Of a stretch of DNA of 64,000 nucleotides, positions 10,868 through 13,943 are shown piece after piece. The position numbers and the translations under genes were made by a program. Under the pieces are notes generated by a model that saw only the letters and a list, made by a program, of their open reading frames with translations, was not told the origin of the DNA and ran no database searches. Position 1 is the stretch's first letter. Each line of letters starts with the position of its first letter. The stretch spans positions 248,001-312,000 of the forward strand of contig NZ_CALPBY010000007.1 of assembly GCF_943181405.1 (NCBI RefSeq), read 5' to 3'. Source of the DNA: Cellulosimicrobium sp. Marseille-Q4280 (GTDB lineage: Bacteria > Actinomycetota > Actinomycetes > Actinomycetales > Cellulomonadaceae).

Positions 10868-12166
10868 ATGACCACCACACAGCAGGCGACGGTCCGCCTC
10901 CTCGTCGACGACCAGGCGCAGGACCTCCCTGTGGTCGCGGCGTCCGAGGGCAACGACGGCATCGTCGTGTCCTCCTTGCTGAAGTCCACGGGTCTCGTCA
11001 CGGTCGACCCCGGCTTCATGAACACGGCGTCGTGCGAGTCGAGCGTCACGTACATCGACGGCGACGCCGGCATCCTGCGCTACCGCGGCTACCCCATCGA
11101 GCAGCTCGCCGAGCAGTCGAGCTTCCTCGAGGTCGCGTACCTCCTCATCCACGGCGAGCTGCCCGACACGCCGACGCTCGACGCGTTCGTCGAGCGCGTC
11201 AACCGGCACACCCTCGTCCACGAGGACTTCCGCACCTTCATGGGCACGTTCCCGCGGAACGCCCACCCGATGGCCGTGCTCTCCTCCGCTATCAACGCAC
11301 TGTCGACGTTCTACCCCGAGTCCCTCGACCCGTTCGACGACGAGACGGTCGAGCTCGCCACGGTCCTGCTCCTCGCCAAGACGCGCACCATCACGTCGTA
11401 CCTGCACCGCCGCCGCGTCGGCGAGCCGCTGCTGTACCCGGACTACTCGCGCGGCTACGTCGACGACTTCCTGCGCATGACGTTCGCGACGCCCTACCAG
11501 CAGTACGAGGCCGACCCGGTCGTCGTCGACGCGCTCGACAAGCTGCTCATCCTCCACGCCGACCACGAGCAGAACTGCTCGACGTCGACCGTGCGCGTCG
11601 TCGGCTCGTCGCACGCCAACCTCTACGCGTCCGTCGCGGCGGGCGTCAACGCCCTCTCCGGCCCGCTGCACGGCGGCGCCAACGAGGCCGTCCTGTCGAT
11701 GCTCGACAAGATCGCCAGCGCGGAGTACGACGTCGACACCTTCATGAAGAAGGTGAAGAACAAGGAGGACGGCGTCCGGCTCATGGGCTTCGGGCACCGC
11801 GTCTACAAGAACTACGACCCGCGCGCCGCGATCGTCAAGAAGTCCGCCGACGCCGTGCTGTCGACCCTCGGCAAGAAGGACCAGCTCCTCGACATCGCGA
11901 TGCGCCTCGAGGAGATCGCCCTCCAGGACGACTACTTCGTCGAGCGCAAGCTCTACCCGAACGTCGACTTCTACACCGGCCTCATCTACAAGGCCATGGG
12001 CTTCTCCCCGGCCATGTTCACGCCGCTCTTCGCGCTCGGCCGCATGCCCGGCTGGATCGCGCAGTGGCGCGAGATGATGAAGGACCCCCAGACGAAGATC
12101 GGCCGCCCGCGCCAGGTCTACGTCGGCGCCACCGAGCGGGACTACGTCCCCGTCGCCGACCGCTGA
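10868..12166 (+). CDS. gltA: citrate synthase (type II, hexameric)
   Basis: 432 aa; condenses oxaloacetate and acetyl-CoA, entry to the TCA cycle. The sequence shows the N-terminal small-domain beta region (ATVRLLVDDQ), GILRYRGYPIEQLAE (~75-89) and HADHEQNCSTSTVR, the first active-site His block (~232-245). It also shows SGPLHGGANEAVL with the second His (~261-273) and MGFGHRVYKNYDPRA with the oxaloacetate-binding His/Arg (~308-322), where the catalytic Asp lies further on in QDDYFVERKLYPNVDFY. Length is typical of type II enzymes. ATG 10868 has a strong AGGAAGGGA upstream. Confidence 0.97.
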   Translation: MTTTQQATVRLLVDDQAQDLPVVAASEGNDGIVVSSLLKSTGLVTVDPGFMNTASCESSVTYIDGDAGILRYRGYPIEQLAEQSSFLEVAYLLIHGELPDTPTLDAFVERVNRHTLVHEDFRTFMGTFPRNAHPMAVLSSAINALSTFYPESLDPFDDETVELATVLLLAKTRTITSYLHRRRVGEPLLYPDYSRGYVDDFLRMTFATPYQQYEADPVVVDALDKLLILHADHEQNCSTSTVRVVGSSHANLYASVAAGVNALSGPLHGGANEAVLSMLDKIASAEYDVDTFMKKVKNKEDGVRLMGFGHRVYKNYDPRAAIVKKSADAVLSTLGKKDQLLDIAMRLEEIALQDDYFVERKLYPNVDFYTGLIYKAMGFSPAMFTPLFALGRMPGWIAQWREMMKDPQTKIGRPRQVYVGATERDYVPVADR

Positions 12167-12306: not shown

Positions 12307-12401
12307 GGGGTGGGGTGTGCGGCGCCGGTCTACCATCCGCAGGCTCGTTCCTCGCCTGCTCCCGCCAGACCCACCACGACCGGCGCCGCACACCCCACCC
12401 C
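12307..12401 (+). repeat. structured element A: 24-bp perfect inverted repeat around a conserved 47-nt core
   Basis: Arms at 12307-12330 and 12378-12401 are perfect reverse complements. The 47-nt core (12331-12377) reads TACCATCC, a 6-bp inner stem (GCAGGC/GCCTGC) with a 9-nt loop TCGTTCCTC, then TCCCGCCAGACCCACCAC. An inverted second copy lies at 12774-12860 with the same unpaired sequences but different, still perfectly paired, stems. It could be a structured RNA, a palindromic mobile element or a dispersed repeat; orientation of any transcript is unknown. Confidence 0.75.
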
Positions 12402-12409
12402 CTCCCTCG

Positions 12410-12536
12410 TCCGGTCCGTCACCGTCCGCCACCGTCCGGCACCGTCCGGCACCGTCCGGCACCGTCCGGTCCGTCACCGTCCGCCACCGTCCGGCACCGC
12501 CCGGTCCGGCATCGTCCGGTCCGTCACCCGTCCGGT
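12410..12536. repeat. degenerate decamer array (ACCGTCCGGC type) with a 34-bp direct repeat
   Basis: About a dozen ACCGTCCGSC-like units. A 34-bp segment at 12411-12444 recurs exactly at 12466-12499. Located between the two structured elements. Confidence 0.85.
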
Positions 12537-12773
12537 GTCTCACCCCTCCGGTCGTCGCCTCGTCGCCCCGGCAGGTCGCGCCCGCTGCGGCTGCCTCGGC
12601 GCTGCTCCCGCGGGGTCGCCTCCGGTGCCGCTCCGGCGTCACCGCACCGTCCCGCGCGTTCGCGCGTCCGCCGGTCCGTCGCCTCGTCCCCGGGAGGCGT
12701 ATCGGTCGCCCTGTGTTCTCGACAGCGGGTCCTCGTCCGGCCACGTACCGGGGTGAGGTGGCCCGGGAGGGAG
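12537..12773. other. gene-free spacer with no recognisable feature
   Basis: About 237 bp between the decamer array and element B. Short open frames exist on both strands, as expected at this GC content, but none has a ribosome binding site or recognisable protein features. Confidence 0.5.
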
Positions 12774-12860
12774 CGAGGGGTGCGCGCGCGGTCGTGGTGG
12801 GTCTGGCGGGAGCGCGCGAGGGACGAGCGCGCGGATGGTAGACCGCGCGCGCACCCCTCG
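12774..12860 (-). repeat. structured element B: inverted second copy, 20-bp arms around the same 47-nt core
   Basis: Arms 12774-12793 and 12841-12860 are perfect reverse complements. The core 12794-12840, read on the minus strand, is TACCATCC, inner stem GCGCGC/GCGCGC, loop TCGTCCCTC, then TCCCGCCAGACCCACCAC. Against element A the unpaired bases differ at one position, while inner and outer stem bases change in compensating pairs (GCAGGC/GCCTGC to GCGCGC/GCGCGC; GGCGCC to GCGCGC on both outer arms). Confidence 0.75.
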
Positions 12861-12871
12861 GTCCCGACTCC

Positions 12872-12961
12872 CAGCCCGACGCGACCGACCAGCCCGACGC
12901 GACCGACCAGCCCGACGCGACCGACCAGCCCGACGCGACCGACCAGCCCGACGCGACGGTC
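12872..12961. repeat. 18-bp tandem repeat, about five copies
   Basis: Unit CAGCCCGACGCGACCGAC begins at 12872, 12890, 12908, 12926 and 12944 (last copy diverged at its end). It sits between element B and the 3' end of the lysozyme-fold gene, again on the outer side of the structured element. There are no spacers, so it is not a CRISPR. Confidence 0.9.
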
Positions 12962-12977
12962 GAGCACACGCAGCAGC

Positions 12978-13943
12978 TCAGGCGGGGTCGGGCGTCGCGA
13001 CGGTGAGTCGGACGGTGCCCGGGGTGGGCGGTGCGGCGTCGTCGGGCGCGACCGTGGTCCAGGTGGGGTCGGCGCGGGTCCAGCGGCGGTCGGCGACCTC
13101 GACGGTCTCGACGTTGGTCGCGTCCGCCGATGCGACGGCCCACTGGGCGACGGCCCAGGCGGCGCGCTCCGGACCGCCGTCGCCGGCCGCCGTCGGGAGG
13201 GACGTGGCGTCGACGACGACGGTTCCCGCCGCGCCGTCCACGGGGGAGACCGGAAGGGGGCCGAGGTCGCGGGTGACGCGGTCGGTGAGGAGGGCGGCGG
13301 GGTCGGAGCCGGCCGCGGGGAGCTCGCTGTCCGCGACGGCGGCGAGGTCGCACGTGAGGGTCGCGGGGGAGAAGCCCGTGAGGGCGGACGCCCACGCGCG
13401 CGAGCGGGGCTCGTGCTGGGCGTACGCGTCGGGGAAGCCGGAGCGCTGCACGGCCTGGGCCGCGACGGTGACCTCCATGTCCTCATAGCCTTCGATCGTC
13501 GCGAGGACGTCGTAGAAGGCGTTCGTCGAGTAGACCGGGTCCATGATCTGCTCGACGCTGCCCCAGCCCTGCGACGGGCGCTGCTGGAAGAGCCCGATCG
13601 AGTCCCGGTCTCCGTAGTCGATGTTCACGAGGCGCGACTCCTGGAGCGCCGTGGCGATCCCGATGGTCCCGGCGCGCGCGGGGAACCCGCGGCGCAGGGC
13701 CGTCGCGGTGACGAGCGCGGCGTTGTCGGCCTGCACGTTCGACAGGTACCAGGTGCGGCCGTCGGCGGTGGCGGCGCAGCGCTCGGCGACGGGCGTGTCG
13801 TCGTCGAGGCGGTTGAGCGCGACGACGACCGCGCCGACCGCGACCGCGGTCACCATGAGGAGCGTGACCGCGGCGCGCAGCGGGCGCCGACGCCGCCCGG
13901 CCCGCGCCGGGGGCAGGTTCCGTGCGGTGCGGGGCGGGGACAT
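12978..13943 (-). CDS. membrane-anchored protein with lysozyme/transglycosylase-like domain
   Basis: 321 aa. A basic N-terminus (RAGRRRRPLR) precedes one hydrophobic segment at ~25-43, giving a short cytoplasmic tail and an exported body. Residues ~75-190 contain the motif series ATALQESRLVNIDYGDRDSIGLFQQRPSQGWG and DPVYSTNAFYDVL. This matches a widespread actinobacterial wall-associated domain with a goose-lysozyme/transglycosylase-type helix and Glu (ESR) in the position of the catalytic acid. The C-terminal ~110 residues are Ala/Asp-rich without motifs. It is encoded 32 bp after dapD and probably co-transcribed. Hydrolytic activity is inferred, not shown. Confidence 0.7.
   Translation of the reverse strand: MSPPRTARNLPPARAGRRRRPLRAAVTLLMVTAVAVGAVVVALNRLDDDTPVAERCAATADGRTWYLSNVQADNAALVTATALRRGFPARAGTIGIATALQESRLVNIDYGDRDSIGLFQQRPSQGWGSVEQIMDPVYSTNAFYDVLATIEGYEDMEVTVAAQAVQRSGFPDAYAQHEPRSRAWASALTGFSPATLTCDLAAVADSELPAAGSDPAALLTDRVTRDLGPLPVSPVDGAAGTVVVDATSLPTAAGDGGPERAAWAVAQWAVASADATNVETVEVADRRWTRADPTWTTVAPDDAAPPTPGTVRLTVATPDPA

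Follow-up and report, generated by a model that had tools for sequence, protein, structure and literature searches.

What are the two nested hairpins that lie in opposite orientation between gltA and a convergent neighboring gene in Cellulosimicrobium sp. Marseille-Q4280, and by what process do such units arise and keep their shape? Direct reading of the window (the whole stretch of DNA that was analyzed, 64,000 nt) together with a repeat search placed a + copy at 12307-12401 and a - copy at 12774-12860; their parts and neighbors are listed in Table 1. The first-pass annotation had described two structured copies with perfect outer arms of 24 and 20 bp, 47-nt cores and inner 6-bp stems, and each of these was present. 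The unpaired parts it had called conserved agree in register at 8/8, 8/9, and 18/18 positions, and the inner stems differ between the copies but are perfectly paired in both (GCAGGC/GCCTGC versus GCGCGC/GCGCGC). Outside each arm, one C.C mismatch is followed by an additional GGGA/TCCC stem. When the four strands of the two hairpins were folded as single-stranded DNA, z-scores were -6.9 to -10.1 and none of 200 shuffles of each strand folded as well; in the C-rich strand of the - copy the best fold adds two pairs between the internal-loop strands. The repeat search also found simple direct repeats adjoining both elements, with CACCGTCCGG units and 18-nt CCAGCCCGACGCGACCGA units (window 12410-12530 and 12871-12960). 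No Pfam family was found for the stretch 12981-13856 of the right neighbor.

Table 1. Features of the gltA downstream region, in window coordinates.
Feature	Position	Strand	Detail	Evidence
gltA (citrate synthase), left neighbor of the hairpins	10868..12166	+		
Separate hairpin immediately 3' of the gltA stop codon	12186..12236	+		repeat search, by-eye genus comparison
5' outer arm, + copy	12307..12330	+	24 bp, perfect	sequence reading, repeat search, DNA folding
Core, + copy	12331..12377	+	47 nt	sequence reading, core scan, covariance model
Core part, + copy	12331-12338	+	TACCATCC	
Inner stem, + copy	12339-12344	+	GCAGGC	
Loop, + copy	12345-12353	+	TCGTTCCTC	
Inner stem, + copy	12354-12359	+	GCCTGC	
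Core part, + copy	12360-12377	+	TCCCGCCAGACCCACCAC	
3' outer arm, + copy	12378..12401	+		sequence reading, repeat search, DNA folding
3' outer arm, - copy	12774..12793	-		sequence reading, repeat search, DNA folding
Core, - copy	12794..12840	-	inner stem GCGCGC/GCGCGC, loop TCGTCCCTC	sequence reading, core scan, covariance model
Core part, - copy	12794-12811	-	TCCCGCCAGACCCACCAC	
Core part, - copy	12833-12840	-	TACCATCC	
5' outer arm, - copy (read on the - strand)	12841..12860	-	20 bp, perfect	sequence reading, repeat search, DNA folding
Convergent right neighbor of the hairpins	12978..13943	-		

BLAST with the gltA spacer returned 82 matches at about 40 places of the same genome (G000). From 39 stretches taken there, a scan for the core gave 42 copies and the covariance model 43 matches, one of them weak. 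The model (R1) was built from 52 copies (alignment A1). It matches only the two hairpins within the window and gives 46 matches in the whole genome; these further copies are the decisive evidence that the two window hairpins are not due to chance. The search of related genomes by covariance model that had been proposed turned up many more, with 12-84 matches in each of the 17 genomes of the genus. Beyond the genus, R1 finds members in 52 of 221 family genomes (17 of them those of the genus), in 25 of 396 genomes sampled from the order, and in five of 394 sampled from the class, among them G000 and G295, which had already been counted. Copy numbers in the family, order, and class searches are lower bounds, since at most 20, 11, and 11 candidates per genome, respectively, were scored under stricter filters, and single matches at E near 1e-5 in these searches may be due to chance. 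A scan with the exact core pattern gave at least 107 stretches, 80 of which were used, the rest entering only the scan of all loci; among the matches listed were Cellulosimicrobium, Luteimicrobium album, Actinomyces urogenitalis, other Actinomyces, and a record labeled Sphaerisporangium. The element flanks on contigs of that record (Sphaerisporangium cinnabarinum ATCC 31213; L060, L066, L081, L086, L111) are about 85-99% identical to Cellulosimicrobium loci, so the record looks mislabeled. Carriage by viruses or plasmids was rejected: viral contigs held no exact core match, and the 109-nt + copy found no match at E 1e-5 in plasmids and phages. Many equal-scoring copies of one subfamily occur in six genomes (G004-G007, G009, G016), where they sit within arrays of a CGAGGTAGAACCNTGGTC-like repeat; in spacers L205-L214, L217, and L225-L239, these 20-21 nt tandem arrays lie 5' of the element and inverse arrays 3' of it. 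A distant member in another family of the class (L247:1501-1614, E 2e-7) keeps the internal loop and has an altered apical part, and lies between what we take to be dnaA-like and dnaN-like genes.

In each unit one hairpin is nested in another: long arms of variable sequence enclose an asymmetric internal loop of 8 and 18 nt, followed by an inner stem of 5-7 bp and a 9-nt loop. Its unpaired strands (TACCATCC, TCGTYCCTC, and TCCCGCCAGRCCCRCCAC) are nearly invariant in their own genome: across the 42 copies of G000, the 35 unpaired nucleotides depart from the consensus at 1.3 positions on average (0-5 per copy). The same copies have 20 distinct inner stems, and Watson-Crick pairs make up 581 of the 630 outer and 237 of the 247 inner pairs inspected. 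In A1, which combines 34 of the 42 G000 copies with 18 named copies and leaves out near-duplicates or odd ones (L023, L025, L031, L037, L039, L048, L054, and L042:4450), standard pairs fill 89.6% of cells; changes affect both sides of a pair in 300 cases against one side in 15, and pairing falls to 40-52% when partners are slid out of register. A second alignment (A2) holds 24 copies from 20 loci of other genera and families, chosen among the family and order matches and fitted to the structure of the model; 93.6% of its pairs are formed, and covariation is 0.80 versus 0.17 after shuffling. The 8-nt unpaired strand shows some drift in A2. Core identity is given by construction in the 18 named A1 rows and the A3 loci, which were fetched with the exact core pattern, and not in the G000 copies or A2, which were fetched without it. 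The first-pass annotation had taken the compensating changes as the mark of selection on structure. The stems do mostly stay paired, and the accumulation of unpaired substitutions that it had named as speaking against the idea was not seen. The conclusion is nevertheless too strong, since template switching between inverted repeats homogenizes the arms, altering both together, and can invert the spacer (accessible text of PMC8604942), and a single event of this kind can bring about compensatory stem changes (accessible text of PMC8794818).

Alignments A2-A4 yielded 151 elements, of which 119 could be placed relative to genes called from codon usage, once 23 that lay no more than 700 nt from the end of a locus, and nine short ones, had been set aside. 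Forty lie in convergent spacers, 53 in tandem spacers, one in a divergent spacer, and 25 inside called genes (14 sense and 11 antisense). These 25 copies agree with the mode of life of Rickettsia-type palindromes, which are carried in frame in protein genes. The open frames that hold copies include dnaE2, ligD, and hrpA, among others. In an NCBIfam scan of 10 host proteins, seven passed the cut-off: an error-prone DNA polymerase carrying two copies, DNA ligase D, an HrpA from another family of the order, likewise with two copies, a heavy-metal P-type ATPase, a molybdate permease/ATPase fusion, a PdxR-like regulator, and a RecB-like nuclease. A biotin carboxylase and a urea/branched-chain permease (L028 and L038) scored below the cut-off, and one host (L052) was without a family. 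When each shared site was counted once (92 groups), 29 of the 34 groups in convergent spacers had the element closer to the gene of its own strand (P = 4e-5), and no polarity was found in tandem spacers (21 versus 17) or in genes (10 sense versus 9 antisense groups). The convergent polarity finds no explanation in a symmetric DNA palindrome.

Comparison of relatives shows occupied and empty sites. The gltA spacer is 811 nt long in G000 and 587 nt in G015, where both elements are present, and in 11 of the 17 genus genomes it is 66-140 nt and without a core. In G008 it holds one element, on the + strand, with arms resembling those of the G000 - copy, and in G005, G012, and G016 it holds a different core within other arms. 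At another site (L217) the spacer is 476 nt in G005 versus 7 nt in G007, and dnaE2 of several relatives is without the inserts. Set against the marks of a MITE, the element has long arms, and no target duplication was seen at the empty sites, where spacers are too diverged for the insertion ends to be fixed to the base. In five genomes (G004, G005, G009, G012, G016) dnaE2 contains sequence like the outer left arm of the element with the hairpin absent, which fits either loss of the hairpin or extension of the arms into the target. The dnaE2 gene of G013 (L258) has one element, in which a 100-nt stretch shares 95% identity with the second element in the G000 dnaE2 gene; it lies at a different place in the gene and in the opposite orientation.

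The flanks of the 151 copies define 26 groups of different loci that share a site, and in five of the 26 the core has the opposite orientation relative to the same flanks. Four of the inverted groups were aligned; the alignment of L039 with L112 is poor near the element, and the pair L067/L179 is distant enough (68-74% identity) that its two units may have been inserted independently. The inversion in the Actinomyces pair L061/L084 also covers sequence outside the arms, where L061 has a further inverted repeat. Arms also change in concert. L066 and L121 occupy the same site in wider flanks that are 95-96% identical, and by eye at least three arm positions differ between them in mirror image, although the adjoining spacer sequence differs as well, and the whole unit may therefore have been replaced at this site. 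The G015 counterpart of the window - copy has, by eye, the same two bases missing from each arm. By analogy with the template-switch literature, template switching would explain both the homogenization of the arms and the inversion of the core. In the accessible text of PMC8604942 and PMC8794818, the inverted repeats of yeast genes and the stems of rRNA likewise show arm homogenization and inversion of the spacer or loop; those systems, however, each involve one locus with a short spacer or loop, the yeast spacers being much shorter than the element core, whereas here the core is about 47 nt long and the family is dispersed.

We therefore read the elements, with a probability of roughly three in four, as dispersed palindromic DNA elements of the REP/RPE kind, present in Cellulosimicrobium and patchily in other Actinomycetia, whose arms are homogenized and whose core is sometimes flipped by template switching. 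Of the first-pass suggestions, a REP/MITE-like palindromic element is the one borne out, by the dispersed copies, the REP-like preference for spacers, and the insertions inside ORFs. Each unit would spread as non-autonomous DNA and would be recognized in its folded form, as a hairpin or cruciform, through the conserved unpaired strands; template switching at the replication fork would then keep the arms complementary and occasionally flip the core. We infer the spreading step, with a mover that in this genus would be something other than a RAYT. The element resembles REPs and RPEs in its working and fails two tested REP features, the transposase and the stem size. Identity to a described transposon terminus, which had been named as an outcome against the proposal, was not found, and neither Rfam nor the literature yielded a described element with this core, in line with the earlier statement that no named element with it was known to the annotator. 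The literature search, core-string queries included, covered open-access articles, subscription journals lying mostly outside it. The family thus adds a large and apparently undescribed group of palindromes to the Actinomycetia, and shows core inversion at shared sites.

Tentatively, the same observations could reflect something more specific: a novel recombination or copying system acting on folded single strands, which would read the unpaired strands and ignore the stem sequence, insert into spacers and genes across Actinomycetia, and invert the core in place, all without a RAYT-type transposase. We regard this as possible but doubtful. As a mechanism, the first-pass suggestion of an ssDNA hairpin used in recombination may likewise apply. 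Integron attC sites are recognized as folded single-stranded DNA with unpaired bases, and the element may be likened to them in that structure is kept while stem sequence varies. The question raised is what recognizes strands that are conserved across families while the stems stay free. A retron or group II intron-like retroelement was rejected as the agent; the reverse transcriptase family PF00078 is found in only three of the 17 carrier genomes of the genus, that of the window among them.

Rather improbable, in our view, is that each copy is a functional DNA site, protein-binding or chromosome-organizing, kept by selection copy by copy rather than as a selfish unit. Some sites are common to different genera (L052/L073/L171 and L089/L106/L170/L183), with drifted arms and a conserved core, so that units can evidently persist for long; such persistence suggests that the individual copy has a function, something not expected of a purely selfish element. 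Across 55 shared-site pairs (57 less two whose core could not be parsed), identity is 96.4% in the unpaired strands, 85.1% in the arms, and 65.8% in the flanks, although these pairs are non-independent and pattern-fetched loci inflate the value for the unpaired strands. Against such a site stand the copy number of 12-84 within the genus and the sites that are empty in relatives, and the core could also be refreshed by copying from other units.

Dispersed DNA palindromes also account better for the pairing statistics than a structured RNA, another first-pass suggestion. Conserved loops, strong covariation, the near avoidance of divergent spacers (1 of 94 spacer copies), and the sense polarity in convergent spacers would all suit a new family of non-coding RNA or 3'-UTR elements whose stems are kept by selection on the transcript. 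Under such selection, however, G.U pairs should far outnumber A.C, and the counts show otherwise: G.T to A.C ratios in the stems are 20:29, 12:18, 10:24, and 9:15 in four partly overlapping alignments, and 8:10 in the G000 copies (outer 7:7, inner 1:3). A.C is slightly in excess, and since A.C on one strand is G.U on the other, there may be weak RNA-level selection on the G-rich strand. The orientation within genes and tandem spacers is mixed, the core is inverted in the five groups described above, and the window units lie beyond a hairpin that belongs to gltA itself. The Rfam comparison proposed by the first-pass annotation gave only two matches, both to miRNA families and, at 26.6 and 20.1 bits, far under the gathering scores of 74 and 105. 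We accordingly reject the RNA family on the G.T/A.C counts, the mixed orientation in genes, and the core inversion, and consider a structured RNA unlikely. The element offers a natural case of textbook covariation, in both stems and over dozens of copies, that looks like RNA and behaves like DNA, and it warns against taking covariation alone as a sign of RNA function.

Very unlikely, too, is a factor-independent terminator or insulator at gene ends, which would suit strong hairpins 3' of genes and the avoidance of divergent spacers. Inspection by eye shows a hairpin directly 3' of the gltA stop codon in every genus genome but G013 (16 of 17). It is likely to be the gltA terminator, separate from the element, and relatives without the element keep it, so the element itself appears not to be needed to terminate gltA. 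A search for a T-run terminator pattern at the hairpins found none, 25 of the 119 copies are inside genes, and a terminator has no need of conserved unpaired strands.

Least probable of all is a REP of the kind found in Pseudomonas or E. coli, moved by a RAYT (Y1 tyrosine transposase): despite the similar preference for spacers, the copies carried by dnaE2 and by genes for DNA ligase and RNA helicase, hosts that the accessible text of PMC3733652 also lists for REPs, and the GTAG (CTAC/GTAG) at the arm-loop junction of the G-rich strand in 52/52 A1 rows (18 of them fetched with TACC fixed), the Y1 family PF01797 has no match in 17/17 genus genomes (control matches in 5/14 named genomes), GTAG recurs by eye in just 10/24 A2 rows at a position that spans the loop-arm junction and leaves no free foot, the arms of at least 20 bp with a nested hairpin are unlike REP stems of 6-13 bp, and strand bias by chromosome half is not significant in G012, G009, or G005 (permutation P 0.14, 0.38, and 0.17, origins not located). 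A RAYT is thereby rejected as the mover within the genus. The likeness to GTAG REPs and REPINs extends to inverted pairs such as that of the window, whereas the rarity of G.T pairs is a further difference, GT pairing being often observed in GTAG REPs (accessible text of PMC3733652). CGTC REPs, RPE-4, and RPE-6 are closer in being dispersed palindromes of spacers and genes, DNA-repair genes included, with no dedicated transposase known according to the accessible text of the same survey. As described there, the CGTC REP has stems of 8-9 bp that begin with AT, loops of 4-5 nt, and in most cases a CCA tail; set against that description by eye, the element differs in that its stems are nested, its hypervariable arms measure about 20 bp or more, its inner stem is GC-rich and 5-7 bp long, and it has a 9-nt loop and an 8/18-nt internal loop, and membership in the CGTC REP/RPE class was rejected on these stem and loop sizes. 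The string "actinobacteri" does not occur in the main text of this 2013 survey, as far as that text is accessible (PMC3733652).

Two further observations concern exchange between units. At one site shared by two genera (L182:4001-4076 and L032:2994-3080), the arms are similar and TACC...GCCAGRCCCACCAC is kept, and the inner hairpin is different. The scan of all loci also recovered a second palindromic family, core B (GCTCGGGGCTGC...TGACGCCCC), in L188, L194, L229, and 19 other loci, and its inner stem likewise varies in pairs by eye. The arms of core B (GGTGCTCGGG and CCCTTCGCATCC) are common to some copies of the present core (core A), for example L058 and L104, as if cores had been swapped between the same arms.
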